43,653 bases of DNA from an uncultured Prevotellaceae bacterium (GTDB lineage: Bacteria; Bacteroidota; Bacteroidia; Bacteroidales; Bacteroidaceae), in the NCBI GenBank assembly GCA_947167515.1, contig CAMVIM010000031.1, positions 1-43,653 on the forward strand, written 5' to 3'. The translations under genes and the position numbers were made by a program. Shown here in pieces: positions 3,923 to 42,575 of this stretch. The notes below the pieces were generated by a model, which was not told the origin of the DNA, searched no databases, and worked only from the letters and a program-made list of their open reading frames with translations. Every line of letters starts with the position of its first letter. The stretch's first letter is position 1.

Positions 3923-4357
3923 ATGACTACAGACGAACGATATATGGCCCTTGCCTTGGAAGAGGCAAGGGCTGCACTGGCACAGGACGAGATACCCATC
4001 GGGGCTGTGGTGGTGGCGAACGGGCAGGTGATAGGTCGGGGACATAACCTGACCGAGACGCTGCACGACGTGACGGCGCATGCGGAGATGCAGGCCATCA
4101 CGGCGGCTGAGGAATGGATGAACGGCAAGTACCTGACGGGTTGTGCGCTCTATGTGACGGTGGAGCCCTGCGTGATGTGCTCTGGTGCCATCGGCTGGAG
4201 TCAGTTGGGAAGGCTCGTCTATGGGGCGAGCGACGAGAAACGAGGCTTTCAGAAGTATGCACCGAATGCGCTACACCCTAAGACGGCGGTGGTGAGCGGT
4301 GTGCTGGAGGCAGAATGTGCCCAGCTGATGAAGGACTTTTTTAAGGGAAAGAGATGA
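3923..4357 (+). CDS. tadA: tRNA-specific adenosine deaminase TadA
   Basis: 144 residues. TadA deaminates the wobble adenosine A34 to inosine in tRNA-Arg(ACG). The zinc-dependent deaminase motifs are present: HAE at residues 53-55 (H53 ligand, E55 proton shuttle) and PCVMC at 82-86 (C83 and C86 ligands). The C-terminal half is family-like (GRLVYGASDEKRGF). Upstream in-frame ATGs at 3908 and 3911 overlap the ATPase stop, but 3923 is chosen because GGAG sits 6 bp before it and because family members begin with an equivalent short DERYM-type segment. The last codons overlap the next gene as ATGA. Confidence 0.92.
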   Translation: MTTDERYMALALEEARAALAQDEIPIGAVVVANGQVIGRGHNLTETLHDVTAHAEMQAITAAEEWMNGKYLTGCALYVTVEPCVMCSGAIGWSQLGRLVYGASDEKRGFQKYAPNALHPKTAVVSGVLEAECAQLMKDFFKGKR

Positions 4358-5694
4358 CGAAGGACATGACGGTGGGGCGGCCGTTTCCGCTTATTCTTAA
4401 TTTTGCCATGCCCATGCTGCTGGGTAACCTGCTCATTCAGGCGTATAGTCTGATTGATGCTGCCATCGTGGGACAGACGTTGGGCATGAATGCCTTGGCG
4501 GGAGTGGGTGCCAGCAGTAGTGTGCTGTTCCTGATTTTGGGTTTCTGTGGCGGACTGACAGGAGGCTTCGGCATCCCCGTGGCTCAGGCGTATGGAGCGA
4601 AGGACTATGTGCGCTTGCAGCGGTATGTGCGGGCCAGTTACCTGTGGGGCATCATCTTCTCGGTGGTGCTGACGCTGGTGTGCTCGTTCTTGTGTGACGA
4701 CATCCTGCGATGGATGCAGACGCCAGAGGACATCTTTCATGAAGCATACATCTATCTGCTCATCACTTTCATCGCCATTCCTTGCAATTTGGTTTATAAT
4801 CTCTTTGCCAGCATCATCCGTGCCTTGGGCGACAGCAAGACTCCGTTCTATGCCTTGCTGATTGGCTCGGCTGTGAACATCGGGCTGGACTTCTTGTTTA
4901 TCCTTGTGTTTGGCATGGGGGTGGGCGGCGCGGCCTTGGCGACAGCTATTGCACAGCTGGTGAGCATATTCCTTTGTTTGTGGCATCTGAAGAAGACACC
5001 CCTGCCGATGTCCCCGAACGGGAAGGAACCAGTGACGCTCCATGATGCTTGGGTTGTCCTCTGCATGGGTGTGCCGATGGGTTTGCAGTTCTCCATCACC
5101 GCCATTGGCTCCATCATGTTGCAAAGTGCCAACAACACGCTCGGCACCGAGTGTGCCACAGCCTTTACGGCGGCCATGCGCATCAAGATGTTCTTCATTT
5201 GTGCCTACGAGAATATAGGCATCGCCCTTGCCACCTACTGTGGACAGAACCTCGGCGCCAAGAAGTATGACCGTATTCGTGCGGGCCTGAAGGATGGCTT
5301 GCTGATGATGCTGGTGTATAGCATCTTCACGTTTCTCATCCTCTGGTTCTTTGCCCGCGACATTTCCACATTATTTATATATAAAGAAGAAACGCAGATT
5401 CTTGCCTATAGTGAGCAGTTCCTGCGTCTCTCGTGCTGTTGCTATGTGTTCCTTGGCACCTTGTGCGTGTTCCGCTATTCGCTGCAAGGAGTGGGCAAGA
5501 CCAAACTCAGCATGTTCTCAGGTGTGAGCGAACTGGTGGCACGTGCCCTTGTCAGCCTCTTCCTTGTGCCAGCCATCGGTTTCCTCGGAGTCTGTATTGG
5601 CGACCCTGCCGCATGGGTGGCTGCCGACTGCTTCCTTGTGCCTACATTTCTGGTCGTGCTGAAGCGATTGAACCTGTCGGCAGAGAAGGCTTGA
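4354..5694 (+). CDS. MATE-family multidrug/sodium antiporter
   Basis: 446 residues, almost entirely hydrophobic, with about 12 predicted membrane segments in two six-helix halves. It opens with the family-typical GRPFPLILNFAMPMLLGNLL. The repeated motif region (ALGDSKTPFYALLIGSAVNIGLDFLFI in the first half; LQGVGKTKLSMFSGVSELVAR in the second) matches the DinF/NorM group of MATE exporters, which move cationic or organic compounds out of the cytoplasm in exchange for Na+ or H+. It overlaps the tadA stop by four bases, so the two are translationally coupled. Its TGA (5692-5694) falls inside a 21-bp tandem repeat shared with the end of the convergent lipoprotein gene. The substrate is unknown. 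Confidence 0.9.
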   Translation: MTKDMTVGRPFPLILNFAMPMLLGNLLIQAYSLIDAAIVGQTLGMNALAGVGASSSVLFLILGFCGGLTGGFGIPVAQAYGAKDYVRLQRYVRASYLWGIIFSVVLTLVCSFLCDDILRWMQTPEDIFHEAYIYLLITFIAIPCNLVYNLFASIIRALGDSKTPFYALLIGSAVNIGLDFLFILVFGMGVGGAALATAIAQLVSIFLCLWHLKKTPLPMSPNGKEPVTLHDAWVVLCMGVPMGLQFSITAIGSIMLQSANNTLGTECATAFTAAMRIKMFFICAYENIGIALATYCGQNLGAKKYDRIRAGLKDGLLMMLVYSIFTFLILWFFARDISTLFIYKEETQILAYSEQFLRLSCCCYVFLGTLCVFRYSLQGVGKTKLSMFSGVSELVARALVSLFLVPAIGFLGVCIGDPAAWVAADCFLVPTFLVVLKRLNLSAEKA

Positions 5695-5751
5695 TGGGTT
5701 CTTATTCTGGCTTGATGGGTTCTTGTTCTGGCTTACTGGGGGCTTATTCCG
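5689..5751. repeat. Three 21-bp tandem units across two convergent stop codons
   Basis: Units at 5689-5709, 5710-5730 and 5731-5751. The first two differ at one base; the third is more diverged. Unit 1 contains the MATE stop (TGA 5692-5694) and unit 3 contains the stop of the minus-strand lipoprotein gene (TTA 5744-5746). Confidence 0.85.
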
Positions 5752-6511
5752 CTTCCGGCTCGCTGGCTTGGCGAAGGAACTTGCCGTCGATGGTATAGGC
5801 GTTGGTGACACTGTAACGCCCATAGTCGGGGGCAGGGTAGTAGCCGTAGGAGGCAAGGATGACTTCGCCCTTTTCGAGGTCGATGCTCTGCACTCCCTCG
5901 GTGCTGGGGAACTGCTTGACGGTGCGCTTCTTGGTGTCAACAATGTAGGTCCAGTAGTTGCGTCCGTCGGGACATCCTTCCACGATGATTCTGCTGCCGT
6001 CCTTAGTGGCAAAGAGCGCCCTCTCGGCAGTGGCGATGAGATGCATCTCGGTGGGGGCAGCGTTCTTGTCCTTCATGTCGTCCCAGAGTCCAGAGGCGGT
6101 GGGGTTGGTCAGGAGAATGCGGCGCACGGTGCCAGCCTTCTCATCGGCCATCCAGACGGAGTAGATGCCTTCTGGCTCGTCTTCGCTCGGTGTCTGTTCG
6201 GCGTTCACATAAAGCACCAGTTTTCCTTGGCGGTCTTGCTCCTCGGCAGTGGCAGGCAGTTGGTCGATAGGGAAGGTGGCTTCATCGTAGGGAGCCATGC
6301 CCTGCAGTTCTGTTTCGTCGGCTTCACCCTCTTCGTAAGATTCAGCATCGCCAATCTGCATGTTGAGGTTCACCTGGCGGATGCTGTCGGTGTCGAACTC
6401 GATGGTGTCGGTGCCGTTGTCGCCACTGATGGTCATTTTGCCACGGCACGAGGTGAGGAAGCCCACGCAGAGTGCGGCTCCTGCACAGAGGATAAGGATT
6501 GTTCTTTTCAT
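5744..6511 (-). CDS. Conserved lipoprotein of unknown function, paralogue of 16218-16979
   Basis: A 255-residue lipoprotein. The signal peptide MKRTILILCAGAALCVGFLTSC has its lipobox cysteine at C22, predicting anchoring in the inner or outer membrane. No enzymatic motif is seen. The protein opens with GKMTISGDNGTDTIEFDTDS, has an acidic low-complexity stretch, and has a C-terminal half rich in short beta strands (VWMADEKAGTVRRILL, EMHLIATAERALFA, GVQSIDLEKGEVILASYGYYPAPDYG). The start is set at 6511 because the signal peptide begins there, 40 bp downstream of a -7 box. The paralogue at 16218-16979 is very similar, with 86 bp identical at DNA level (5855-5940 against 16329-16414). The function is not recognised. 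Confidence 0.8.
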   Translation of the reverse strand: MKRTILILCAGAALCVGFLTSCRGKMTISGDNGTDTIEFDTDSIRQVNLNMQIGDAESYEEGEADETELQGMAPYDEATFPIDQLPATAEEQDRQGKLVLYVNAEQTPSEDEPEGIYSVWMADEKAGTVRRILLTNPTASGLWDDMKDKNAAPTEMHLIATAERALFATKDGSRIIVEGCPDGRNYWTYIVDTKKRTVKQFPSTEGVQSIDLEKGEVILASYGYYPAPDYGRYSVTNAYTIDGKFLRQASEPEAE

Positions 6512-6550
6512 AGAGGTTTGGATTTTTTTGTGAAAAGTAAGTAGTTGAGG

Positions 6551-6558
6551 CAAAGATA
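6551..6558 (-). promoter_or_regulatory. -7 box for the lipoprotein gene at 5744-6511
   Basis: The minus strand reads TATCTTTG, matching TAnnTTTG, 40 bp before the ATG. No clear -33 TTTG is seen at the usual distance. Confidence 0.5.
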
Positions 6559-6573
6559 GCGACATTTTTCTCG

Positions 6574-6666
6574 TAACTTTGTGATGTTTTTCTACTTCAG
6601 TTTTGGCTTTTTTCTGCGTATAGAAGGTAAAACGGCATCAAAACAGCATGGACAGAGCAACTTTTG
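6574..6666 (+). repeat. Conserved intergenic block, copy A (partner at 17956-18049)
   Basis: About 93 bp alignable along its length with 17956-18049. The shared parts include TAACTTTGT, GTTTTTC, CGTATAG, GATAAAA-like sequence and CAGCATGGACAGA. Both copies lie directly upstream of minus-strand lipoprotein genes, and both begin with TAACTTTG, a plus-strand -7 box. It is non-coding in all frames. Confidence 0.65.
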
Positions 6667-6683
6667 AACAGGCGGCAGCAAAA

Positions 6684-6748
6684 CCGTAGCCGAGGGGTAC
6701 GCCTTGCCGTAGTCGAGGGGTACGGCACATCGTAGTCGAGGGGTACGG
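6684..6748. repeat. Intergenic array of three units at exact 23-bp spacing
   Basis: CGTAG(T/C)CGAGGGGTACG occurs at 6685, 6708 and 6731. The middle unit, with its flanking base, reads CCGTAGTCGAGGGGTACGG, with short inverted ends CCGTA and TACGG. Together with copy A of the conserved block and the next promoter, this array fills the 370-bp gap between the divergent lipoprotein and regulator genes; no open frame in the gap looks real. Confidence 0.85.
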
Positions 6749-6824
6749 CTATGAATAGGTGACAGTGAAGGTGAGAAGGCTTGCCCGATGTAAGACACTG
6801 TTAGAGCGATTTTTATCTGATTTT

Positions 6825-6856
6825 TTTGTTTTTTTTAGAGAAAGGAACTATATTTG
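6825..6856 (+). promoter_or_regulatory. Bacteroidota-type promoter for the AraC-type regulator
   Basis: TTTG (6825-6828), 20-bp spacer, TATATTTG (6849-6856); ATG follows 26 bp later. Confidence 0.65.
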
Positions 6857-6882
6857 CAAACGAATAGAATATCTGACGGCTT

Positions 6883-7992
6883 ATGTTCGAGCAAGATATA
6901 AAGGAGGATTTACTCTATCTGATGTTATATGTGGGTGTGACGGTGCTGAGTCTGGTTGCCTGTTGCTATCTGCTGTTCCGACGTGCCAACGCTATCGCCC
7001 CCGATGTCACGCCGCCCCTGCGTCTGCGCCGATGGACGGCTGCCTTTTTGGCTTGCGCCACATTGAGCCATCTGTGGTATATGCCGCTCCTTTACCTCAC
7101 GTCTGCCGATGACGTGAAGATGATCTATTTTATATGTGCATTGCTCGACTTCCTGACGGTGTTCCCTTTGGCAATAGTCGTTTTGTTCACGATGCTGCAG
7201 GACCGAAGGCGGCCACTTTGGCCCATTGGTGTGATGATGGCCCCCCTCGTCGTAGGAATGGTGGTGTGTATCGTCACCCGCAGCGATGCCATTCTGCCGC
7301 CACTGTATGCCTATTATCTGTTGCTGGCCGTAGGCTTGATCATATTCATGGTACGTGCGGTGAGGCAGTATGGGCGTTGGCTGCGCGACAACTATGCAGA
7401 CTTGGAGCATAAGGAGGTGTGGCAGAGTTTGGTCGTGTTGCTCATCATTCTGGCAGCATTCAGCCTATACGCATTTGAACTTCACGGTACTTACTACAAA
7501 TATGCAGTCCAGACAATCGTCTTCTTCTTGATTTGCTTTCTTGTGTGGCGTGTGGAAACGCTCAGCGACTTGAACCCAAGGGATGCTCAAGCCTCTTCAG
7601 CCGAAATCGTCGAAGAGACGGTGAAAGAAGTACCTTCTCTGGTTGCTGACGATAAAATCGGGGCATTGTTGCAGAAGCATTGTATAGACACGCAACTCTA
7701 CCTGCAGCACGACCTGACCGTTCATCAATTAGCCAAGGCTGTTGGCACCAATCGGTTCTATCTTAGTCAATATTTCTCTCAGCAGGACAACACATACAAT
7801 GGCTATATCAACGGGCTGCGCATCGACCATTTCATGGCTCTCTATCGCAAGGTTGTCGCCGAACGTCAACCTTTCACCGTCAAGCAACTGGCCCAGGACA
7901 GCGGTTACCGCAACTACACGACTTTCAGCAATGCCTTCAAGCAGCGCATGGGAAAGAATGTGAAGGATTGGATGCGGATAAATGAGGCCTGA
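6883..7992 (+). CDS. Membrane-anchored AraC-family transcription regulator
   Basis: 369 residues. The N-terminal part, to about residue 225, holds roughly six or seven hydrophobic segments (LLYLMLYVGVTVLSLVACCY, FLTVFPLAIVVLFTML, LVVLLIILAAFSLYAF and others), so this half sits in the cytoplasmic membrane. The C-terminal 110 residues are an AraC-type DNA-binding domain with two helix-turn-helix units, starting near residue 282 (QLAKAVGTNRFYLSQYF) and near 333 (VKQLAQDSGYRNYTTFSNAF). Such a build suggests a signal sensed in or across the membrane, with DNA binding on the cytoplasmic side. It ends 162 bp before an operon-like run of lipoprotein hydrolases whose upstream region has a 21-bp-spaced direct repeat, as expected for an AraC-type operator. 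Control of that run is inference. Confidence 0.88.
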   Translation: MFEQDIKEDLLYLMLYVGVTVLSLVACCYLLFRRANAIAPDVTPPLRLRRWTAAFLACATLSHLWYMPLLYLTSADDVKMIYFICALLDFLTVFPLAIVVLFTMLQDRRRPLWPIGVMMAPLVVGMVVCIVTRSDAILPPLYAYYLLLAVGLIIFMVRAVRQYGRWLRDNYADLEHKEVWQSLVVLLIILAAFSLYAFELHGTYYKYAVQTIVFFLICFLVWRVETLSDLNPRDAQASSAEIVEETVKEVPSLVADDKIGALLQKHCIDTQLYLQHDLTVHQLAKAVGTNRFYLSQYFSQQDNTYNGYINGLRIDHFMALYRKVVAERQPFTVKQLAQDSGYRNYTTFSNAFKQRMGKNVKDWMRINEA

Positions 7993-8033
7993 CGGCTGTC
8001 GATTGATGTACTTCTTTGAACTCCTATTTATAA

Positions 8034-8066
8034 AATCAGCAAAAATTGATATAGAATCAGCAAAAA
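8034..8066 (+). promoter_or_regulatory. Direct repeat, candidate operator for the AraC-type regulator
   Basis: AATCAGCAAAAA occurs at 8034-8045 and 8055-8066, 21 bp apart start to start, so both copies lie on the same face of the helix. The second copy ends 48 bp before the -7 box at 8115. Paired direct repeats at two helical turns are typical of AraC-family sites. Confidence 0.6.
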
Positions 8067-8114
8067 CCCACTTGCAGACTTCTCTGACGAGTTTTTTTTG
8101 TGAGAAATATTCAT

Positions 8115-8122
8115 TACTTTTG
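8115..8122 (+). promoter_or_regulatory. -7 box of the amidohydrolase operon
   Basis: TACTTTTG matches TAnnTTTG. The -33 position falls in a T-run (8092-8099) without a distinct TTTG at the best spacing, which fits a promoter that needs an activator. Confidence 0.5.
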
Positions 8123-8154
8123 TGACAACTTTATCAATCAAAAAAGTAATGAGT

Positions 8155-9906
8155 ATGAAAGAAAAAGTTCACATGAGTGCAAAGAAGATGCTTTCGGGCA
8201 TCGCAGTGATGGCTGTTGTCATCAGTATGGCTATGCTTGCCAGTTGCAAGGGCAAGACCAGTGCTGACCTTGTGGTCTATGGTAAAATCTTTACCGCCGA
8301 AGGCAATCAGGTTGTGGAAGCCTTTGCCGTGAAGGACGGCAAGTATGTCTATGTGGGCGACAAGGCAGGAGCCGAAGCCTTTGTAGAAGAGGGTAAGACC
8401 GAAGTGATAGACTATAGCGGCAAGGGCCTTGTGATGCCCAGTTGTGGCAACGGCCATGCCCACTATACGCTGGGCTATGCCATCCAGGCCGTCGGAACAA
8501 TCGTTGACTATGAAGACAGCCCCGAAAAGTTCTTGAAGGAAATCGTTCCCGCTGCGGTCAAGAAGGCAAGGGACACAGGGGCCAAGGCTATATTTGGCCA
8601 AGGTTGGAATCTGATGACTTTTGAAAACAATATGCCTACCCGTCAACAGTTGGATGCCATCTGTAACGACATTCCCATTTACTTTGCCGACGAGGAGGGG
8701 CATAAGGGACTGGCAAACAGCATCATGCTGGTCAAGGCTGGCATCATGAAGGAAGATGGTACACTGCTCAAGAAGGAGATACGTGGTGGCGAGATTGGGA
8801 TTGCGGCCGACGGTACTCCCAACGGCTTCCTGTCGGAACAAGCGGGCACTTACACCCGTTCCTTCTTAGACAACGAAAGCCTCTTTTCCATCGACATAGC
8901 AAAGGCCACCATGAAGAGTGTCCAGGAGCATTTGCTCTCGGAGGGCTACACGATGTATATCGACGGATACTCCACCTATTTCTTTAACGAAAACATCTTT
9001 AAGGCTGCCCAGCAGATGGACGAGGCTGGCGACCTGCACTTCGTCATGGGTCTGACAACCGAACTGGACAGTTGGATGGATATGGATAAAGTTCTGGCCA
9101 AGGCTGGCGATGCGAAGAAATACGCTTCCGAACACGTAAAACCGAACTGGCTCAAAATCTTCGTGGACGGCACCGTGGAACCCGGCACAGGTTTTGTGGA
9201 GCCACTCTATCCCGATGGTCATCAGGGTGTTGTCCTCTGGTCGGAAGAGGAACTGACGGACATCACGCGCAAGGCGAATGAGAAAGGGGTGACTGTCCAC
9301 ACGCACGTTATGGGTAACAAGGGTGTCAATCGCATTGTCAGCGCCTACGTCAATGGCGGTAAGGATGAGATGCGCAATACGTTGGTACACGTGCATAGTG
9401 TCTATCCCGAGGACTATCAGCGCATGGCCGACCATAACATCTATGTCACCGAAGGCATGCTTTGGCACCATTTCTCCAATGACAAGCAGGAGTTGCTTAA
9501 GGCAGGCTATGTTCCCGTGGGAATGGAGGATAAGAGTTATCCGATGAAGTCATACTTCGACCACGGCATCAACATGTCTTCGCACTCGGACTTCCCTGCA
9601 CTGAGCGGCAGTCCCGACGACCCGTTCGGTATCATGGAAGTGGCCGTGACAGGTGTCTATTACCCAGAACAGGCAAAACCCTGGTGGCCTGAAGAACTCC
9701 TCACTCGCGAGCAGGCCCTCACCGCCCTGACCATCAACTGCGCCAAGCAGATGTTTATCGAAAAGGAAAGAGGTAGTGTGAAGGAAGGCAAGTTTGCCGA
9801 CTTCCTGCTTGTGACCAAGGATGTGCTGTCCTGCCCCGTGACGGAGATTCATGAGGCCAAGCCTGCCGCCACCTACTTCGAGGGCAAGAAAGTGTTCTCG
9901 ATGTAA
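8155..9906 (+). CDS. YtcJ-like amidohydrolase, lipoprotein (first of three paralogues)
   Basis: 583 residues. Signal peptide with lipobox MLASC (C31), so the enzyme is lipid-anchored outside the cytoplasm. The body is an amidohydrolase (TIM-barrel, metal-dependent) of the YtcJ/AepA-like group. Candidate metal ligands and catalytic residues are H101 and H103 in GHAH, K334 in LKIFVDG, H382/H384 in VHTHVMG, H412/H414 in VHVHSV and D479 in SSHSDFPAL. The N-terminal strand KTSADLVVYGKIFTAEG and the C-terminal GSVKEGKFADFLLV form the usual beta-sandwich. Family members split C-N bonds in small amides or cyclic amides; the substrate is unknown. ATG 8149 is an alternative, but 8155 is preferred because all four genes of this run start within a (A/G)GTATG context. 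51 bp separate it from the next paralogue. Confidence 0.85.
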   Translation: MKEKVHMSAKKMLSGIAVMAVVISMAMLASCKGKTSADLVVYGKIFTAEGNQVVEAFAVKDGKYVYVGDKAGAEAFVEEGKTEVIDYSGKGLVMPSCGNGHAHYTLGYAIQAVGTIVDYEDSPEKFLKEIVPAAVKKARDTGAKAIFGQGWNLMTFENNMPTRQQLDAICNDIPIYFADEEGHKGLANSIMLVKAGIMKEDGTLLKKEIRGGEIGIAADGTPNGFLSEQAGTYTRSFLDNESLFSIDIAKATMKSVQEHLLSEGYTMYIDGYSTYFFNENIFKAAQQMDEAGDLHFVMGLTTELDSWMDMDKVLAKAGDAKKYASEHVKPNWLKIFVDGTVEPGTGFVEPLYPDGHQGVVLWSEEELTDITRKANEKGVTVHTHVMGNKGVNRIVSAYVNGGKDEMRNTLVHVHSVYPEDYQRMADHNIYVTEGMLWHHFSNDKQELLKAGYVPVGMEDKSYPMKSYFDHGINMSSHSDFPALSGSPDDPFGIMEVAVTGVYYPEQAKPWWPEELLTREQALTALTINCAKQMFIEKERGSVKEGKFADFLLVTKDVLSCPVTEIHEAKPAATYFEGKKVFSM

Positions 9907-9957
9907 ACTAAAACAAAGAATAGGTTAAACCAATAAAAACAAACAAATCGAATAAGT

Positions 9958-11703
9958 ATGATGAAGAAAATGCAGTCGTTCATCGCTGTGGTGAGCATCG
10001 CCCTCGGAATGACTATGCTTACGGGGTGTAAGGATAAGGATAGTGACGCTCCTCTGGTTGGTGCCGACCTCGTGGTCTATGGCAAGATATTTACTTCCGA
10101 GGACAATCGGGTGGTGGAAGCCTTTGCCGTAAAGGATGGTAAGTACGTCTATGTAGGTGACAAGTCGGGAGCCGAAGCCTTTGTGGAGAAGGGCAAGACT
10201 GAGGTGGTGGACTATACAGGCAAGGGGCTTGTGATGCCTGGCTGCGGCAACGGCCACGCACACTATTCGATGGGGTTTGCCCTCCAGTCAATAGGAACGA
10301 TAGTCAGCACGGAAGAAAGTGTGGAATCTTTTCTGACAAAAATCGTTCCCGATGCGGTCAAGAAGGCAAAAGATAAAGGGATGAAGACTGTGTTCGGCTT
10401 CGGATATAATGCACTGGAGTTCGAGAAAAACATGCCCACCCGTCAGCAGTTGGATGCCATCTGCAGTGATATTCCCGTTTACTTCGCCGACGAGGGAGCC
10501 CACAGCGGTATATTCAACACCATTGCCTTGGTCAATGCCAGCATTATGAAGGCCGACGGCACAGTACTGAAGACAGAGATAAGCGGCGTTGAAATCGAGA
10601 TGGGAGCCGACGGCACACCTACTGGCTTTCTGAAGGAACAGGCTCAGACCTACGTGCGCTCCTTCTTAGACAATGACAACCTCTTTACGGTGGATATAGC
10701 AAAGGAAAACTTGGTGAGAATCCAAGAGCATTTGTTAGCAGAAGGCTACACGATGTACCTGGACGGCTGGACCACCTATTTCTTCAACGACAACTTCTAC
10801 AAGGCCGCCCAGCAGATGGACGAGGCCGGCGACATGAAGTTTGTGATAGGTACGACCTACGAAATAGACAGTTGGATGGATGTGGATGCTATGTTGACCA
10901 AAGCCGCTAATGCCAAGAAATACGCTTCTACACGTGTGAAAACAAACTGGATTAAACTCTTCATGGATGGTATCGTGGAAACGGGTACCGGATTTGTGGA
11001 ACCGCTCTATCCTGACGGACATCAGGGTGTGGCCAACTGGTCGGAAGAGGAACTGACGGACATCACGCGCAAGGCCAACGAAAAGGGCATCACCATGCAC
11101 GTACACGTGATGGGCAACAAGGGTGTCACTCGCCTTGTCAATGCCTATATCAACGGTGGAAAGGACGAGATGCGTAACACGCTGGTTCATGTGTATTATG
11201 TCAGTGAACCAGACTATCAGCGGATGGCTCAGCATAACATCTATGTCACCGCAGGTTTGTCCTGGCATCATTTCACCGATAAGATGCAAGCGTCACTGCC
11301 AGACATGGTTCCTGCAGGTATGGATGTCAGAGGCTATCCCCTGAAATCCTTTTTTGACAATGGCGTCAATATGTCCTCGCACAATGACTACCCAGCATTG
11401 GGCGGCGGTCCCGACGATCCGTTCGGTGCCATAGAGATAGCCGTGACGGGTGATTATTACGCTGAGGTGGGAAAACCCTGGTGGACAGAAGATTGCCTCA
11501 CCCGTGAGCAGGCCATCACCGCCCTGACCATCAATGTGGCTAAGCAGATGTTTATCGAGAATGAGCGAGGCAGTATAAAGGAGGGTAAGTATGCCGACTT
11601 CCTGCTTGTGACCAAGGACGTGCTGACCTGCCCCGTGACGGAGATTCACAAGGCCAAGCCTGCCGCCACCTACTTCGAGGGCAAGAAGGTGTTCTCGATG
11701 TAA
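9958..11703 (+). CDS. YtcJ-like amidohydrolase, lipoprotein (second paralogue)
   Basis: 581 residues, clearly paralogous to the genes on both sides over its full length. Signal peptide with lipobox MLTGC (C24). The GHAH, LFMDG, HVHVMG, VHVYYV and SSHNDYPAL motifs correspond to the metal and catalytic positions of the first copy. Differences include N for S in SHND and Y for H in the VHVYYV segment, so at least one proposed histidine (H414 of copy 1) is not conserved and is probably not essential. The region around TFGFGYNALEF and IAVTGDYYAEVG is the most diverged and may reflect a different substrate. The spacer after its stop (TAAACTAAAACAAAGAA) repeats the one after copy 1, which supports tandem duplication of gene plus spacer. 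Confidence 0.85.
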   Translation: MMKKMQSFIAVVSIALGMTMLTGCKDKDSDAPLVGADLVVYGKIFTSEDNRVVEAFAVKDGKYVYVGDKSGAEAFVEKGKTEVVDYTGKGLVMPGCGNGHAHYSMGFALQSIGTIVSTEESVESFLTKIVPDAVKKAKDKGMKTVFGFGYNALEFEKNMPTRQQLDAICSDIPVYFADEGAHSGIFNTIALVNASIMKADGTVLKTEISGVEIEMGADGTPTGFLKEQAQTYVRSFLDNDNLFTVDIAKENLVRIQEHLLAEGYTMYLDGWTTYFFNDNFYKAAQQMDEAGDMKFVIGTTYEIDSWMDVDAMLTKAANAKKYASTRVKTNWIKLFMDGIVETGTGFVEPLYPDGHQGVANWSEEELTDITRKANEKGITMHVHVMGNKGVTRLVNAYINGGKDEMRNTLVHVYYVSEPDYQRMAQHNIYVTAGLSWHHFTDKMQASLPDMVPAGMDVRGYPLKSFFDNGVNMSSHNDYPALGGGPDDPFGAIEIAVTGDYYAEVGKPWWTEDCLTREQAITALTINVAKQMFIENERGSIKEGKYADFLLVTKDVLTCPVTEIHKAKPAATYFEGKKVFSM

Positions 11704-11759
11704 ACTAAAACAAAGAAAAAAGATAAGTTAAACAATTGAAACAAGCAAATGGTATGGGT

Positions 11760-14423
11760 ATGAAAAAGAAAATGTTATCGCTCATGACAGTGATGGCTGT
11801 CATCTTGGGAATAGGGCTGTTTGCCAGTTGCACGGACAAGACCAGTGCCGACCTCGTGGTTTATGGTAAGATTTTTACCGCCGAAGACAGCCAGATTGTA
11901 GAAGCCTTTGCCGTGAAGGACGGCAAGTTCGTCTATGTAGGCGACAAGGCAGGAGCCGAAGCCTTTGTGGAAGAGGGCAAGACCGAAGTGATAGACTATA
12001 GCGGCAAGGGGCTTGTGATGCCTGGCTGCGGCAATGGTCACGCACATTATTCGCTGGGCTATGCCATCCAGACGGTCGGAACGGTGATGGACAGGGCTGA
12101 TGGCGTGGATAAGTTCTTTAAGGAAATCGTTCCCGCTGCGGTGAAGAAGGCAAAGGACACGGGTGCCAAGGCCATCTTTGGCAGTGGATGGGATATGATG
12201 AAGTTTCCGAAAGACTTGTCTTATCGCAAACAACTGGATGCTATCTGTAGTGACATCCCCATTTACATTGCCGACGAGGAGGGTCACAAGGGTCTGGCTA
12301 ACTCCATCCTGCTGAAAAAGGCAGGTCTCATCAACGAAGACGGTACGGCTGGCAAGACTGAGGTGCGCGGCGGTGAGGTGGTGCTGGATGCTGACGGCAT
12401 ACCGACTGGTTACGTGATGGAACAGGCAGGCACCTATGTCCGTTCGTTCTTGGACAACGAAGACCTCTTCTCTGTTGACATCGCAAAGGGAAACATGGCG
12501 AAGATTCAGGAGCAGTTGTTGTCTGAGGGCTACACGATGTATCTTGACGGCTATACTTCTTATTTCTTCAATGACAACTTCTACAAGGCCGCCCAGCAGA
12601 TGGACGAGGCTGGCGACATGCACTTCATCTTGGGTACGGCATGGGAGTTGGACAGTTGGATGGATGTGGATAAGACGCTGGAAAAGGCCAGTGCCACGAA
12701 GCAATACGAGTCTGCGCACATCAAGACCAACTGGTTCAAACTCTTCATGGACGGAACGGTGGAAAGCGGTACGGGTTTTGTGGAGCCGCTCTATCCTGAC
12801 GGTAAGCAGGGCATTCCCAACTGGTCGGAAGAGGAACTGACGGACATCACCCGCAAGGCCAACGCGAAGGGTATCACCATGCATGTGCATGTGATGGGCA
12901 ACAAGGGCGTGGAGCGCATTGTCAACGCCTACATCAACGGCGGAAAGAAGGAGATGCGCAACACGCTGGTGCATGTGTATGGTGTCAGCGAGCCTGATTA
13001 TCAGCGGATGGCAGACAACAACATCTATGTCACCTCTGGTATGTTGTGGCATCACGCTGATGATGAGTTGCAAGCAGAGTTGCTTCAGATTCTTCCTGAA
13101 GGCATGAAGGACAAGGGCTATCCCATGAAATCCTTCTTCGACCATGGCATCAACATCTCCTCTCACTCGGACTTCCCTGCCTTGTGCGGTGCTCCCGATG
13201 ACCCCTTCGGCATCATGGAGATTGTGGTCACGGGTGTTTACCAGCCTGAGCACGGCAAACCTTGGTGGACCGAAGAATGTATCACCCGTGAGCAGGCTCT
13301 CACCGCCCTGACCATCAATGTGGCCAAACAGATGTTTCTGGAGAATGAGAGAGGCAGCATCAGCACAGGCAAGTATGCTGACTTCCTGCTTGTGACCAAA
13401 GACGTGCTGACTTGTCCTGTGACTGAGATTCACGAGGCTAAGCCTGCCGCCACCTACTTTGAGGGCAAGAAGGTCTATTCTCAAGCAGGTACAGACGAAT
13501 CGGCATATACCCCCATCGACTATTCAGACAAAAACAACTGGCTCAGGCTGCCTGAGATAGCAAAGGATGTCGATGCCATCTATATTTATCCCACGGAATA
13601 TGCCGACGATTCAGAGGGGGCACCGATGTTCGCCGACATCAACAATCTGGCCTTGCGAGATGCGTGGCAAGATGCCTATCTGATGCAGGGAACGGTATAT
13701 GAGGAATCCACGAATGTCTTTGCTCCTTTCTACAGGCAGGGCAACATGGCTGCACTGGTCTCATTGTCGCGCGAGGAGATGGATGCAACACTCGGCAGTA
13801 TTCCCAAAAAGGATGTCTTTGCAGCACTCGACTACTATTTTCAGAACCTGAATGACGGAAGGCCCTTCATCCTCGCAAGTCATTCACAGGGCTCAATCAT
13901 GCAGGGCTTTGTGCTCGCAGAATATATGAAGGCGCATCCTGAGTATTTGAAGCGCATGGTTGCGGCCTATCTGATTGGTTATTCAGTCACAGAGGATTAT
14001 CTCAAAGCCAATCCACACCTGAAATTCGCAGAAGGGGCCGATGACACGGGTGTTATCGTATCATGGAATACAGAGGGACCTGCTAACGCGGATAAAGAAA
14101 ACATCGTTGTCCTGCCAGGTGCCATCAGCATTAATCCCCTGAACTGGAAACGAGATGGGACATACGCTTCGGCAGAGGAAAACCTGGGCGGCTACATTTA
14201 TAATGAAGAAACCGAAAAACTTGAGGTTGTTCCTAACGCTGCTGATGCGCAACTGGATTTGAAAAGGGGCGTTGTCATAACAAAGACCAAGGCTCTGGAG
14301 CCCATCTCTGGTGTTCCTGCTTTCGGCCCTGCCAGTTATCACAATGGTGATTATGCACTTTACTACAACAACATCAAGGACAATGTAGCCAAGAGAATTG
14401 CGGCTTATATGTCCAAGAAATAG
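11760..14423 (+). CDS. Fusion of YtcJ-like amidohydrolase (third paralogue) and DUF3089 alpha/beta-hydrolase domain, lipoprotein
   Basis: 887 residues. Lipobox FASC (C24). Residues to about 574 align with the two preceding amidohydrolases and keep GHAH, LFMDG, HVHVMG, VHVYGV and SSHSDFPAL. Where they end with KKVFSM and a stop, this protein reads KKVYSQAGTDE and continues for about 310 residues into a DUF3089 domain. That domain shows DAIYIYPTEY near its start and the nucleophile elbow SHSQGS with S709; family members are serine hydrolases of the alpha/beta fold with poorly known substrates. The join falls at about base 13480. ATG 11754 is an alternative start. The fusion predicts two successive hydrolytic steps on one substrate class at the same membrane site; this is inference. 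Confidence 0.85.
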   Translation: MKKKMLSLMTVMAVILGIGLFASCTDKTSADLVVYGKIFTAEDSQIVEAFAVKDGKFVYVGDKAGAEAFVEEGKTEVIDYSGKGLVMPGCGNGHAHYSLGYAIQTVGTVMDRADGVDKFFKEIVPAAVKKAKDTGAKAIFGSGWDMMKFPKDLSYRKQLDAICSDIPIYIADEEGHKGLANSILLKKAGLINEDGTAGKTEVRGGEVVLDADGIPTGYVMEQAGTYVRSFLDNEDLFSVDIAKGNMAKIQEQLLSEGYTMYLDGYTSYFFNDNFYKAAQQMDEAGDMHFILGTAWELDSWMDVDKTLEKASATKQYESAHIKTNWFKLFMDGTVESGTGFVEPLYPDGKQGIPNWSEEELTDITRKANAKGITMHVHVMGNKGVERIVNAYINGGKKEMRNTLVHVYGVSEPDYQRMADNNIYVTSGMLWHHADDELQAELLQILPEGMKDKGYPMKSFFDHGINISSHSDFPALCGAPDDPFGIMEIVVTGVYQPEHGKPWWTEECITREQALTALTINVAKQMFLENERGSISTGKYADFLLVTKDVLTCPVTEIHEAKPAATYFEGKKVYSQAGTDESAYTPIDYSDKNNWLRLPEIAKDVDAIYIYPTEYADDSEGAPMFADINNLALRDAWQDAYLMQGTVYEESTNVFAPFYRQGNMAALVSLSREEMDATLGSIPKKDVFAALDYYFQNLNDGRPFILASHSQGSIMQGFVLAEYMKAHPEYLKRMVAAYLIGYSVTEDYLKANPHLKFAEGADDTGVIVSWNTEGPANADKENIVVLPGAISINPLNWKRDGTYASAEENLGGYIYNEETEKLEVVPNAADAQLDLKRGVVITKTKALEPISGVPAFGPASYHNGDYALYYNNIKDNVAKRIAAYMSKK

Positions 14424-14443
14424 TGAACCTAAAATTATTGGGT

Positions 14444-16156
14444 ATGAGAAATCTAAATACATGGGTGCTTGTAGCCATACTTATATGTGGTGCAGGGATG
14501 ATGTTGACGGCCTGCAAAGGTGGTCAATCTGCCAACGAGACGAGTGAATCCATGGAGGAGTACAAAAAGATTGTCAGGTCGTGGTACGGCGAGAACAAGA
14601 CAATCACAGACGGCAGTTACGACCAGTCGCTGGCCGTCAAGTGCATCAACGGCACTTTTGTCGGCAAGAAGGCGGAAAACACCATCGTCTTCAGAGGCAT
14701 TCCGTATGTAGGCCAGCAGCCTGTAGGTGACCTGCGCTGGAAAGCACCCGTGGATGTCGTATCCTGCGACAGCGTCTATGAAGCATACTACAACGCCAAG
14801 ACAGCCGTACAGCCTGAGGCCGAACTGTCTTCCCTCTACTATCAGGGCGAGGACTGTCTCTACCTGAATGTGTGGAAACCGGCTAAAGTGTCGGCCGAGA
14901 AAAAGCCCGTCATCGTGTGGATACACGGTGGTGCCTACGAGTATGGCGGAACGGTTGACCCGCTGTACGACTTCCAGAATTTTGTGGAGGAGAATCCTGA
15001 GGTCATTGTTGTCAGCGTGGCCTACCGACTCGGCGTTTTCGGTTTCCTGCATCTGTCGCATCTGCCCGACGGCAAGGACTATCCTGACGCACAGAACTTG
15101 GGACTCTTGGACCAACTGATGGCTCTGAGGTGGGTGCATGAGAACATCGCGGGCTTCGGTGGCGACCCCGACAATGTGACCCTCATGGGCGAATCGGCAG
15201 GTGGAGGAAGCGTAACCTGTCTGTCACTGGCGGGCGGCACTCCCGCTGATGCGCCTACTCGTAGCCTTTCACACCAGTATTTCAACAAAGTCATTGCCTT
15301 GAGCGGTAATCCCGGTCTGTCGAGGTCAACGGAACAGGCCGTCGCTTGCACGAATGAACTGATGGAAGCGTTAGGCTGCAAGACCGTTGCCGACCTGCGG
15401 AAGGTGGATGTGCAGAAACTCGTGGGCGTGGCCAGCGAGTTGCTCCCCTTGCGCATGGCACCCGAAAGAGACGGGAACCTGCTGCCCAAGAATCCGTGGG
15501 AGGCCATTGCAAGCGGTGCGGTGAAGGACATCACGTTCCTGCACGGTGTCAACAAGGATGAGATGAATTTCTTCCTGGTGGAGATGGGTGGAGCGGAGCC
15601 GTTCAATGAGTGGGCTGCCGACCGCAAGGCGAAGAAACTTTCCCTGATGACAGACGGGGAGAAGGCTCTGACGGAACGTTTCTGCAACGATGTGAAGGGA
15701 GAAAGTTATGAACCATACTGCAAGTGGTTCAGCCAGTTGATGTTCAACGCGCCGTGCATCCGCCTCTCGGAGGAGCAGACCAAGGCTGGGGGAAAGTCCT
15801 TCACCTACTACTTCACCGTAGAGTCGGCCTTGCCGCTGCTGAAGAGCGGTCATGGCATGGCACTGGCTCCGCTCTTCAAGCATCCAGAGTTGGACGGCGA
15901 CACAGGACGGCCATTCGACGAGACTTTCTCGAAGACCATGCGCAAGATGTTTGTGCAGTTTGCGAAGACTGGCAATCCTTCGGTCACGGCGGACATCTCT
16001 CCCGATGGCAAGGCCAAGGAGTGGCCGCTCTATGATGTGGCTGACAAGAAGGTGATGGTTTTCGACGAGTTCGACATCCATCCAGAAAAGGAACGCCAGA
16101 GAAAGATTGTTGACTGGGACAGGACCTATTTCCTTACCAATTATTATTGTTTTTGA
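14444..16156 (+). CDS. Type-B carboxylesterase, lipoprotein
   Basis: 570 residues. Lipobox LTAC (C24). The family is carboxylesterase type B (alpha/beta hydrolase). HGG at 161-163 forms the oxyanion hole, GESAGG contains nucleophile S251, and NVWKPA and YRLGVFGFL are family-typical; HGMAL near the C-terminal third is the likely catalytic histidine region. It hydrolyses carboxylic esters outside the cytoplasm; the substrate is unknown. The first in-frame codon is a GTG overlapping the preceding stop (14423), but ATG 14444 is chosen because the lipoprotein signal peptide starts there in the same GTATG context as its neighbours. It is the last gene of the four-gene run: 20 bp follow the fused amidohydrolase, and the next gene downstream is convergent. 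Confidence 0.88.
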   Translation: MRNLNTWVLVAILICGAGMMLTACKGGQSANETSESMEEYKKIVRSWYGENKTITDGSYDQSLAVKCINGTFVGKKAENTIVFRGIPYVGQQPVGDLRWKAPVDVVSCDSVYEAYYNAKTAVQPEAELSSLYYQGEDCLYLNVWKPAKVSAEKKPVIVWIHGGAYEYGGTVDPLYDFQNFVEENPEVIVVSVAYRLGVFGFLHLSHLPDGKDYPDAQNLGLLDQLMALRWVHENIAGFGGDPDNVTLMGESAGGGSVTCLSLAGGTPADAPTRSLSHQYFNKVIALSGNPGLSRSTEQAVACTNELMEALGCKTVADLRKVDVQKLVGVASELLPLRMAPERDGNLLPKNPWEAIASGAVKDITFLHGVNKDEMNFFLVEMGGAEPFNEWAADRKAKKLSLMTDGEKALTERFCNDVKGESYEPYCKWFSQLMFNAPCIRLSEEQTKAGGKSFTYYFTVESALPLLKSGHGMALAPLFKHPELDGDTGRPFDETFSKTMRKMFVQFAKTGNPSVTADISPDGKAKEWPLYDVADKKVMVFDEFDIHPEKERQRKIVDWDRTYFLTNYYCF

Positions 16157-16177
16157 CAGGCTCTTCTTGCATTTACG

Positions 16178-16240
16178 GCTCGACGGAGTCTTATTCAGGC
16201 TGTGGCTCGCCAGGCGCTTATTCGGGCTGTGGCTCGCTGG
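16178..16240. repeat. 27-bp tandem repeat across the stop codon of a lipoprotein gene
   Basis: Units at 16178-16204 and 16205-16231, then a partial third. Each full unit has TTATTC followed by GGCTGTG, so on the minus strand the gene's final EPQPE-stop is repeated downstream of the real stop (16218-16220; echo at 16191-16193). Confidence 0.8.
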
Positions 16241-16979
16241 CCTGTCGGAGGAACTTGCCGTCGATGGTATAAGCGTTGGTGACGCTGTAACGGCCATAGT
16301 CGGGGGCTGGGTAGTAGCCGTAGGAGGTAAGGATGACTTCGCCCTTTTCGAGGTCGATGCTCTGCACTCCCTCGGTGCTGGGGAACTGCTTGACGGTGCG
16401 CTTCTTGGTGTCAATGGTGTAGGTCCATGTGTTACGAGCATCTGGACATCCTTCCACGATGATTTTTGAACCATCTTTTGAGGCGAAGAATGCTTTTTCT
16501 GCTGTGGCGATGAGGTGCATCTCGGTGGGTGCGGCATTGGAGTCTTTCTCCTTCATCTGGTCCCAAAGACTTCCAGCTGTGGGGTTGGTGGTGAGAATCT
16601 TGCAGACTTTGCCCGCCTTCTCGTCTGCCATCCAAACGGAGTAGATGCCTGCTGGCTCGTCCTCTGTCGGTGCCTGCTCGATGTTCACATAGAGCACCAG
16701 TTTGCCTTGGCGATCCTGCTTCTTGGCTGTTTCAGGCAGTTCGCTGATGTCCATGGCCTCTGCCTCGTAGAGAGCCAACCCCATCGCCTCGGTTCCGTCA
16801 GCTTCTCCTTCTTCGTTGGTTTTTACGTTGATGTTGATTTCGCGGATGCTGTCGGTATTGAACTCAAGGGTGTCGGTACCGTTGTCGCCGCTGATGGTCA
16901 CTTTGCCATGGCATGAGGCGAGGAGGAGTCCTGCCGTCAGAGCCGTTCCTGCGATGAGTGTGAAGATGGTCTTTCTCAT
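16218..16979 (-). CDS. Conserved lipoprotein of unknown function, paralogue of 5744-6511
   Basis: A 253-residue lipoprotein with signal MRKTIFTLIAGTALTAGLLL and lipobox ASC (C23). Mature sequence starts HGKVTISGDNGTDTLEFNTDS, as in its paralogue. After an acidic variable stretch the two proteins are nearly identical from DRQGKLVLYV to the C-terminus (ASEPQPE here, ASEPEAE there). No catalytic motif is recognised; the beta-rich pattern and repeated VWMADEKAG and YPAPDYG elements suggest a beta-propeller or sandwich-like fold. Its ATG overlaps the stop of the small lipoprotein gene upstream (ATGA), so the two are coupled, and both follow the larger lipoprotein gene at 17198-17893. The orientation equals that of its paralogue, making the pair direct repeats around the hydrolase cassette. 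Confidence 0.8.
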   Translation of the reverse strand: MRKTIFTLIAGTALTAGLLLASCHGKVTISGDNGTDTLEFNTDSIREININVKTNEEGEADGTEAMGLALYEAEAMDISELPETAKKQDRQGKLVLYVNIEQAPTEDEPAGIYSVWMADEKAGKVCKILTTNPTAGSLWDQMKEKDSNAAPTEMHLIATAEKAFFASKDGSKIIVEGCPDARNTWTYTIDTKKRTVKQFPSTEGVQSIDLEKGEVILTSYGYYPAPDYGRYSVTNAYTIDGKFLRQASEPQPE

Positions 16980-17167
16980 TGTTCTATTGTTTTTGATGAA
17001 TTGTTTCCGTTGTGCGGTTCTTGTCTGCCCATAGAATCTTCCGACAGGGTGTCTGTCGGTGGGGTATATACCATACCTGGACCATCGAGTGGTTCGCCGA
17101 TGTGGAATACGTGCTTGCATCCTGTCAGAAGGACGGGCAAAAGGGCAAATGCGAATAAGTATTTCAT
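16976..17167 (-). CDS. Small lipoprotein, unknown function
   Basis: 63 residues: signal peptide MKYLFAFALLPVLLTGC with lipobox cysteine C17, then a short, polar, proline- and serine-rich tail (YTPPTDTLSEDSMG). No fold or family is recognised. Reality is supported by the clear lipobox, by a start 30 bp after the upstream lipoprotein stop on the same strand and by its TGA sharing bases with the next ATG. No equivalent is present beside the paralogue at 5744-6511. Confidence 0.65.
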   Translation of the reverse strand: MKYLFAFALLPVLLTGCKHVFHIGEPLDGPGMVYTPPTDTLSEDSMGRQEPHNGNNSSKTIEQ

Positions 17168-40231: not shown

Positions 40232-40239
40232 TAAATTTG
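40232..40239 (+). promoter_or_regulatory. -7 box of the type I restriction-modification operon
   Basis: TAAATTTG matches TAnnTTTG, 27 bp before the hsdM ATG. A TTG at 40207-40209 is a possible -33 element at longer than usual spacing (22 bp). Confidence 0.5.
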
Positions 40240-40266
40240 CATATAAAACCAGTTGATAGAAAAATT

Positions 40267-41826
40267 ATGGGAAACATACAACAACGTGAGGAATTGCATC
40301 GCACCATTTGGGCGATGGCTGATGACTTGAGAGGTCAGGCAGGTGGATGGGAGTTTAAGGCATACGTGCTGGGCACTCTGTTCTATCGGTTCATCTCGGA
40401 GAATCTGACTGACTACATCAACAAGTTGCAGGCAGAGGCAGGTGTGGAGGGCTTTGACTATGCTGCCATGAGCGACGAGGAAGCAGAAGAGGCGCGCGAC
40501 ATGATGGTGGCGGAGAAGGGTTTCTTCATCCTTCCCTCCCAACTCTTCCAGAATGTGTGCAAGCATTGTGAGCAGGACGAGAACCTGAACATGACGCTGG
40601 CAAAGGTGTTCAAGGAGATTGAGGGTTCTGCCATCGGCACAGCATCGGAAGATGACATGAAGGGCTTGTTCAGCGACTTCAACGTGGACAGCATGTTTTT
40701 GGGTGGCGATGTGAAGACTCGCAACAAGAACATGGCAAAGGTGCTCCTGAAGATTCGCGACATGAATTTGGGCGAGGATTTTCTGGACAACAAGATAGAT
40801 GCCTTTGGCGATGCCTATGAGTTTCTGATGACCATGTATGCCAGCGGGGCAGGCAAGTCGGGCGGCGAGTTCTTCACCCCTCAGGAGGTGAGCGAACTCT
40901 TGGCGCGTCTGGCTGCTGCCGATGGGCATGAGATTCGTTCGGTCTATGACCCTGCATGTGGCAGTGGCTCGTTGTTGCTCAAATTCTCCAAGACCATCGG
41001 AAGGGACAATCCCAACCTGATGTACTACGGACAGGAAATCAACCCCACCACCTACAACCTGTGCCGCATCAACATGTTCCTGCACAACATCAACTACGAC
41101 AAGTTTGACATCCAGTTAGGTGACACGTTGGTTCATCCCCTGCATCGTCAGTTGGAACCCTTCGATGCCATCGTCAGCAATCCCCCTTACAGCATCGAAT
41201 GGGAAGGCTCGAAGAATCCGCTTCTGATTAACGATGACCGCTTTTCGGGTCCTGGAGTGTTGGCACCCGACAAGACTGCCGACCTCGCTTTCACGCTCCA
41301 CATGCTGGCATCGCTCAGCGAGAGTGGAACGGCTGCCATCGTCGAGTTCCCTGGTGTGCTCTATCGTGGAGGCAAGGAGAAGTCCATCCGTCAGTGGCTC
41401 ATTGAGAACAACCGCATCGACACCATCATTCAGTTGCCCAGCAACCTTTTCTTTGGAGTGGGCATTGCCACCTGCATCATCGTGTTGCGCAAGGGCATGC
41501 GTCCCGACAATCAGGTGCTCTTCATCGATGCCTCGCGTGAGTTTGTGAAGAATGGCAACAAGAACCGTCTCACCCAGGAGAACCAAGACCACATCTTCCA
41601 CGTGTTTGCCGAGCGCAAGGAAGAGCAATACTTCTCCTGCTTGGTGCCCAATAGCGATATTTTGGCAAACGATGCCAACCTCTCCGTTTCCTCCTATGTG
41701 GAACAGGAAGACACCCGTGAGGTGATAGACATCAAGGCGGTCAATGCCAAGTTGGTGGAACTGATTGCAGAAGGTGAAGAGTTGAACAGGAAGATTGAAA
41801 CGATTATCAAGGAATTAGGAGCATGA
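40267..41826 (+). CDS. hsdM: Type I restriction-modification methyltransferase subunit HsdM
   Basis: 519 residues. HsdM is the adenine-N6 methyltransferase subunit that, with HsdS, modifies the recognition sequence. The N-terminal helical HsdM domain (QQREELHRTIWAMADDLRG, VLGTLFYRFISENL) precedes the Rossmann methyltransferase core: FFTPQEVSELLARL (202-215), motif I DPACGSGSLLL (228-238) and motif IV NPPY (305-308). All catalytic motifs are present, so the enzyme is probably active. ATG 40267 is chosen as the family start; the frame is open 30 bp further upstream. Its stop overlaps the fic start as ATGA. Confidence 0.95.
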   Translation: MGNIQQREELHRTIWAMADDLRGQAGGWEFKAYVLGTLFYRFISENLTDYINKLQAEAGVEGFDYAAMSDEEAEEARDMMVAEKGFFILPSQLFQNVCKHCEQDENLNMTLAKVFKEIEGSAIGTASEDDMKGLFSDFNVDSMFLGGDVKTRNKNMAKVLLKIRDMNLGEDFLDNKIDAFGDAYEFLMTMYASGAGKSGGEFFTPQEVSELLARLAAADGHEIRSVYDPACGSGSLLLKFSKTIGRDNPNLMYYGQEINPTTYNLCRINMFLHNINYDKFDIQLGDTLVHPLHRQLEPFDAIVSNPPYSIEWEGSKNPLLINDDRFSGPGVLAPDKTADLAFTLHMLASLSESGTAAIVEFPGVLYRGGKEKSIRQWLIENNRIDTIIQLPSNLFFGVGIATCIIVLRKGMRPDNQVLFIDASREFVKNGNKNRLTQENQDHIFHVFAERKEEQYFSCLVPNSDILANDANLSVSSYVEQEDTREVIDIKAVNAKLVELIAEGEELNRKIETIIKELGA

Positions 41827-42560: not shown

Positions 42561-42575
42561 TTTGGATTGAAGCGT

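Follow-up and report, generated by a model that had tools for sequence, protein, structure and literature searches.

What task could four consecutive lipoprotein-like hydrolases share that they stand, as one collinear series, directly behind a membrane-embedded AraC-type regulator? The question is raised by positions 6883-16156 of contig CAMVIM010000031.1 from an uncultured Prevotellaceae bacterium (NCBI GenBank assembly GCA_947167515.1). The window, i.e. the whole stretch of DNA analysed, comprises 43,653 nucleotides and is the complete contig of a 3.68 Mb genome with 98.85% completeness. All five genes of the cassette lie on the plus strand: the AraC-type regulator (6883..7992), lipoprotein amidohydrolase 1 (8122..9906, likely start ATG 8149 or 8155), lipoprotein amidohydrolase 2 (9958..11703), lipoprotein amidohydrolase 3 with a C-terminal DUF3089 domain (11736..14423, likely start ATG 11754 or 11760), and a lipoprotein carboxylesterase (14423..16156, likely start ATG 14444). 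Our analysis confirms this layout, which had been proposed in a first-pass annotation, and partly supports the interpretation given there, namely a surface or periplasmic pathway that dismantles a compound with amide and ester bonds. We propose, with a probability of roughly 0.55, that the predicted enzymes form a catabolic operon which is under local control, moves horizontally and serves to break down small acylated (amide or ester) molecules. What the computation shows is the gene content, the conservation of catalytic residues and of the operator, the repeated fusions, the concordance in cellular location and the transfer of the block.

The regulator matches PF00165 and PF12833 above cut-off, and a hydropathy scan gives it six hydrophobic segments. 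The gap between it and the first hydrolase contains AAAATCAGCAAAA (8032..8044, plus strand), AGAATCAGCAAAA 21 nt later (8053..8065, plus strand) and TACTTTTG (8115..8122, plus strand), which begins 62 nt after the start of the second half-site and leads directly into the gene. The first two are predicted half-sites of an operator; the third is the candidate -7 element of the hydrolase operon, and its spacing is kept in relatives. The motif TAnnTTTG is the -7 element of Bacteroidota; the TANNTTTG scan for it yields 16 occurrences on the plus strand of the whole window, among them TATATTTG (6849..6856), a candidate -7 element of the regulator gene itself. The predicted direct-repeat operator, with a spacing of 20-22 nt and a position about 60 nt upstream of TAnnTTTG, is kept across species.

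This conservation was examined in 50 regulator homologues, 31 of which directly adjoin a hydrolase gene. TAnnTTTG occurs 70-130 nt past the regulator stop in 26 of these 31, versus 3 of the 19 others, a control group that is not clean because at least four of its members (L084, the third of L089, L097, L114) have hydrolases one gene further on. The sample consists of homologues with at least 40% identity and 200 aa; truncated proteins, cases at contig ends and five entries that repeat named contigs (L029, L032, L033, L035, L036) were left aside here and in the location analysis below, and related species and neighbouring pairs are not independent. In the 26 loci the best 14-mer self-match at a spacing of 20-22 nt averages 12.3/14; these loci score 7.8 at 26-28 nt, and the 19 others 8.9. 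With the register fixed, 24 of the 26 are scorable and yield 16 unique half-site pairs; all but one of these (15/16) fit the consensus at 9/13 or better in both halves. Half-sites of the same locus resemble each other more (10.94/13) than half-sites of different loci do (9.81/13), a difference reached in 0 of 20000 shuffles of the 16 pairs, relatedness being ignored. Throughout the 3.68 Mb genome the exact operator is found once; three weak matches with 3 mismatches lie elsewhere, and the reversed-pattern control gives 0. Repeats and -7 element together have the predicted layout of a local AraC-type activator site, to which the regulator would bind. A regulated cassette, as the first-pass annotation had assumed, thus finds its counterpart in a conserved predicted operator between regulator and first hydrolase. 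No riboswitch or other known RNA was detected within 6500-16300 at an E-value of 0.1. Among Prevotella-like bacteria, the window offers a clear example of an AraC-type membrane regulator paired with a predicted operator. Homologues of this regulator are often located beside very large predicted surface proteins of about 1200-2600 aa (L034, L045, L047, L052, L086, L124, L127); one such protein, at L047 in the bacterium's own genome (C7), has a weak match to the adhesive domain Pectate_lyase_5.

By our own heuristic, each of the four hydrolases has a hydrophobic leader and a lipobox-like cysteine at its N terminus, in line with the lipoprotein signals reported earlier. The three amidohydrolases score 165-181 bits against PF07969 (curated cut-off 29.7; E-values 4.1e-48, 5e-50 and 6.4e-53 in gene order), and the residues H102, H104, H184, K335, H385, H413 and D479 are invariant across 13 relatives. 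These motifs are those expected of a binuclear metal site, with H184 as the probable auxiliary histidine; for H413 and D479 a role in this site is presumed. An alignment with PDB 3igh places His or Lys opposite H102, H104, H184, K335 and H385, the five of the seven residues that fall inside the alignment. The DUF3089 domain matches PF11288 with 139.2 bits (E-value 1.7e-40, cut-off 23.4), as do 11 of 11 aligned members; the nucleophilic serine and the C-terminal histidine are invariant in 11 relatives, the aspartate of the triad was not located, and a search of solved structures with this domain and its alignment gave no match. The domain is not one of unknown activity: several members are characterised esterases, among them Est10 from the bovine rumen, which favours C4 esters (PMC4431682), and MGS0012, whose Ser-Asp-His triad was mutagenised (PMC5341072). 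The carboxylesterase matches PF00135 with 291.9 bits over 475 residues (E-value 1.4e-86, cut-off 27), its translation contains the GESAG motif, and its nearest solved relatives are carboxylic ester hydrolases. Nothing in these translations suggests dead enzymes, and amide cleavage by the amidohydrolases appears plausible.

These enzymes also occur joined in single chains. Among 111 long amidohydrolase domains (>480 aa, at least 50% identical) in named loci, nine share a chain with an esterase domain, and the window adds one more. The order amidohydrolase-DUF3089 is present on five contigs (L073, L074, L075, L078, L079), the reverse order on three (L087, L104, L105, with L087 and L105 being near copies), and an amidohydrolase-carboxylesterase fusion of 1111 aa on one (L134); Pfam, run on the fused chains of L073, L075, L078, L079, L087, L104 and L134, confirmed six of the nine. 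Fusions occur in three phyla and in both domain orders, the latter being the best sign that both enzymes serve one task. The amidohydrolase halves of the amidohydrolase-DUF3089 fusions are scattered over the tree (6 changes), and a single clade, i.e. a single fusion origin judged by this half, is rejected at p 2e-11 on a quick tree (LG+G4) in which L078 forms a long branch. The six C-terminal DUF3089 domains, in turn, group with two stand-alone copies from Selenomonadales (97/95). One fusion with exchanged amidohydrolase halves and several fusions are both possible histories. In genome G064 the amidohydrolase and DUF3089 genes lie in one frame with a few codons and stops between them, possibly a forerunner of a fusion. 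Some further variants were observed: a Synergistaceae chain of 1205 aa (L079:1632-5249) contains one amidohydrolase and two DUF3089 domains of different DUF3089 clades; the sister species G014 has a fused gene (L028:110-1915) from which nearly all of DUF3089 was lost in frame, the last 16 residues remaining; and in genome G025 a carboxylesterase of 630 aa (L029:1128-3020) has an N terminus composed of the two ends, leader and tail, of an amidohydrolase whose catalytic middle is missing.

Neighbouring hydrolases also agree in their predicted cellular location. Of 57 adjacent pairs from different families, both members are exported in 38 and cytoplasmic in 11, and 8 pairs are mixed; the agreement of 49/57 was reached in 2 of 10000 shuffles, whose mean is 34.9. 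Because neighbouring locations agree, cassettes seem to exist whole in either a lipoprotein or exported form or a cytoplasmic form, and the occurrence of both types speaks for a small substrate that diffuses or is transported rather than for a polymer. Cytoplasmic cassettes (L042:2235-4380, L062:4022-6112, L034:4994-7094) contain two conserved genes of about 280 and 410-430 aa without a known family.

The relatives were collected from a scan with one genome per species, in which the best 80 of at least 541 stretches were kept, giving 78 loci. Three phyla are represented: Bacteroidota, Bacillota (Selenomonadales) and Synergistota. The titles of 45 of these 78 records name a ruminant, its gut compartment or the RUG set, which we take to be rumen genomes; the other 33 (UBA and SRR bins, Selenomonas ruminantium, Quinella) give no habitat. 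The best identities between phyla are 78-83%, and a quick tree built from 114 domains needs 8 changes to accommodate the three phyla, as compared with a minimum of 2 and a shuffled mean of 36.8. Bins of metagenome-assembled genomes (MAGs) can mislead; cassette genes are found on six Bacillota contigs of 120-305 kb (L076, L080, L133, L139, L140, L144). Counting modules in 84 same-strand gene runs with a window-type amidohydrolase, many of which end at contig ends, we found the regulator in 28 of 50 runs from Bacteroidota, 1 of 3 from an unnamed phylum, 0 of 25 from Bacillota and 0 of 6 from Synergistota. The corresponding numbers are 24, 1, 4 and 1 for a close carboxylesterase, and 8, 0, 6 and 2 for DUF3089. 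Among 45 genomes of the same genus, the amidohydrolase clade is present in 7, the close carboxylesterase in 8 and both in 5 (p 8e-4, with cut-offs chosen after the lists were seen). The cassette content is hence kept beyond the genome of the window, and the expected conservation of gene order holds in part: the modules recur in varying order, and the exact succession is peculiar to the window among the loci fetched. The three amidohydrolases are no simple recent tandem array; on the tree each lies in a different clade, together with orthologues of its own from elsewhere, and recent tandem triplication is rejected.

Pfam and NCBIfam searches with recurrent unfamiliar neighbour genes gave no family that would name a substrate. 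A gene resembling CPA2-type cation:proton antiporters lies near the cassettes of L083, L088, L094, L101 and L113; the one scanned remained below the curated cut-off. Another recurrent neighbour is a secreted protein of about 230-260 aa that matches nothing in Pfam or NCBIfam and by eye resembles a small outer-membrane beta protein; it is found near cassettes in L073, L083, L084, L089, L090, L097 and L116, and in L084, L089 and L097 it is placed between regulator and amidohydrolase.

Like the regulatory layout, the recent transfer of the block is well supported by computation. In a comparison with G014, the third codon positions of identical residues agree at 0.750 in the GDSL gene and 0.695 in the MATE gene of the left flank, versus 0.975 in the regulator, 0.955 in amidohydrolase 1 and 0.970 in amidohydrolase 3; DNA identity changes from 76-88% to 97-99% across LPa1 (5744..6565, minus strand), a lipoprotein gene at the left border. 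The copy in G014 is without amidohydrolase 2, its contig ends just past gene 3, and a carboxylesterase search in this 83% complete genome gave no match at 1e-20. The cassette occupies an insertion hot spot: the MATE-type transporter gene (4354..5694, plus strand; Pfam MatE, TIGR00797), a kept flank of it, occurs together with an AMP-binding gene (window 18563) in five of six fetched regions of the same genus, with differing genes between them, and the sixth region is cut off by the end of its contig. G025 shows an empty site: one LPa gene and a homologue of the gene at 17198 come after its MATE gene, with no cassette there; this genome has its own cassette on another contig. In the window the cassette stands between LPa1 and its paralogue LPa2 (16218..17120, minus strand). 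The two proteins are 75% identical over 257 residues, and at the DNA level the genes form direct repeats, 85% and 75% identical, at a spacing of 10.47 kb. Recombination in LPa repeats would be the simplest route in. LPa1 has no Pfam match; matches to LPa paralogues are present in 18 of 45 genomes of the genus. Spread by phages or plasmids is rejected: viral contigs gave 21 pattern matches, none of them confirmed, phage records contain only distant carboxylesterases (7 records, all <60% identity), and all plasmid matches stay below 60% identity, none covering 80% of the query. At the far end of the window (40237-43652) lies a Type I restriction methylase (HsdM-like), followed by a Fic-domain protein.

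How could such a cassette work? According to our model, the membrane-anchored AraC-type protein would sense a small inducer, bind the direct repeats at 8032-8044 and 8053-8065 and activate the promoter just upstream of hydrolase 1. The four lipoproteins would then be made and anchored on the periplasmic or the outer face, where they may jointly degrade small acylated molecules. An amide or related bond would be cleaved by the metal-dependent amidohydrolase modules of YtcJ type, the ester bonds of the same compound class by the modules of family XV and carboxylesterase type, and the products would enter via general routes. DNA binding, induction, joint substrate and amide cleavage are what we infer, the joint substrate being a fair inference. 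Since most of the named carriers are ruminant-gut bacteria, our best guess for the substrate is a forage-derived acylated small molecule; hydroxycinnamoyl esters and amides, known from plant chemistry, are one candidate. The drug or peptide substrate considered earlier finds no support. A wider view is conceivable, though we hold it only tentatively: a previously undescribed cross-phylum catabolic system of the ruminant gut, whose mobile, operator-controlled cassettes, with recurrent bifunctional chains in either order, degrade one doubly acylated class of forage compounds that ordinary glycan loci leave untouched. If our main reading is right, it points to a class of compounds that matters so much in the rumen that three phyla share the genes for it, and operator and bifunctional enzymes make the substrate findable.

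Several observations weigh against a dedicated catabolic operon. Five of the 31 regulator-hydrolase loci have no promoter element in range, the operator is not recognisable in L101, and generic scans for sigma-70 promoters and terminators gave no excess over chance. The regulator is missing from all runs of Bacillota and Synergistota as well as from 22 of the 50 runs of Bacteroidota, and a close carboxylesterase from 26 of these 50, in part owing to contig ends. No other fetched locus has the exact gene order (AraC, three YtcJ-type genes, DUF3089, carboxylesterase), and 8 of the 57 neighbouring pairs are discordant in location. Moreover, PF07969 enzymes act on many bonds, which makes amide cleavage uncertain, and a classification paper regards DUF3089 members as possible acyltransferases (PMC11878206).

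A rival reading is a loose set of broad-range scavenging or detoxifying hydrolases, which share a regulator, travel together and cut many unrelated esters and amides independently. Cassette composition varies freely, MATE-type transporters lie near some cassettes, and on model esters the two esterase families show promiscuity (PMC4431682, PMC5341072); we nevertheless consider such a set rather improbable, because fusions in both orders, concordant location and a dedicated operator exceed the needs of general scavenging. Slightly less credit is given to the idea that the amidohydrolase modules cut esters, lactones or another bond, so that the cassette would serve purely ester or lactone degradation. 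The fusion partners are esterases only, and amidohydrolase-superfamily enzymes that are mainly esterases are known from other families of that superfamily (PMC5341072); H184, on the other hand, invariant in 13 relatives, corresponds by motif equivalence to the auxiliary His196 of the amide-cleaving BwBSH1 (PMC13081902). Much the same doubt applies to a target other than forage compounds, namely lipid-like N-acyl and O-acyl molecules of microbes or the host, such as signals, lipids and conjugates. The rumen lies before the bile duct and bile does not occur in it, which argues against such a target, as does the place two residues before the catalytic histidine, where two of the window enzymes have Glu and the third has Gly instead of the Ser of BwBSH1, compared by motif position. 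In favour of it, a PF07969 enzyme cleaves the N-acyl taurine of bile acids (PMC13081902). A bile salt hydrolase proper is rejected, the sulfonate-binding serine of metalloBSH being replaced, as judged by motif position, in all three window amidohydrolases. That fusion or cassette is an artefact of assembly or binning is very improbable: many records are MAGs and several relatives stop at contig ends inside repeats, but an isolate (L078) has the same architecture in its genome, as do MAGs from three phyla, Bacillota bins carry cassettes on the long contigs mentioned above, and G014 retains a remnant of the fusion. As an explanation of the fusion, such an artefact is rejected.

For the proposed catabolic operon, the enzyme families are known, and their regulated, fused and mobile combination is new. 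What our analysis adds to the first-pass annotation is the operator, the repeated fusions in both orders and three phyla, the shared location, the cross-phylum distribution in the ruminant gut and the recent block transfer; searches of full-text literature returned no account of a regulated, fused, cross-phylum mobile cassette of these families. Among known systems, the polysaccharide utilisation loci of Bacteroidota likewise combine lipoprotein hydrolases with a dedicated regulator and move between species. They possess a SusC/SusD pair, however, whereas none was found, as already stated in the first-pass annotation, among the 20 window translations scanned (cassette and near flanks, a part of the open reading frames of the window), and the family scan detected no glycan-active enzyme among the cassette proteins. 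AraC-type local activators, exemplified by the arabinose regulator, have in common with our case an HTH_AraC domain and a pair of direct repeats, spaced by about 21 nt, that precedes the target promoter, but they sense with a soluble sugar-binding domain instead of six hydrophobic segments.

At the level of the enzymes, the metalloBSH of Bilophila wadsworthia (PMC13081902) resembles the window amidohydrolases in its PF07969 domain, the metal-ligand motifs with auxiliary histidine, and its export. Some members of either kind have an extra C-terminal domain; that of the window is a DUF3089 hydrolase, unlike metalloBSH. Furthermore, Ser194 is without a window counterpart by motif, the neighbours in the window are esterases, and the carriers are different: Desulfovibrionaceae for metalloBSH, and Prevotella-like bacteria, Selenomonadales and Synergistota of the ruminant gut for the window type. 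The family XV esterases Est10 and MGS0012 (PMC4431682, PMC5341072) share PF11288, an SxSxG or GxSxG motif and the invariant serine and histidine with the window domain, which has SHSQG in place of GHSQG. Est10 likewise comes from the rumen and is similar in length to the stand-alone DUF3089 relatives, but it is a secreted single-domain protein, whereas the DUF3089 of the window is fused to an amidohydrolase lipoprotein. The type-B carboxylesterases with solved structures (8wdm, 2ogs, 1qe3), finally, agree with the window enzyme in PF00135 and GESAG; the latter differs from them as a lipoprotein that is tied to an AraC-type regulator and to amidohydrolases.

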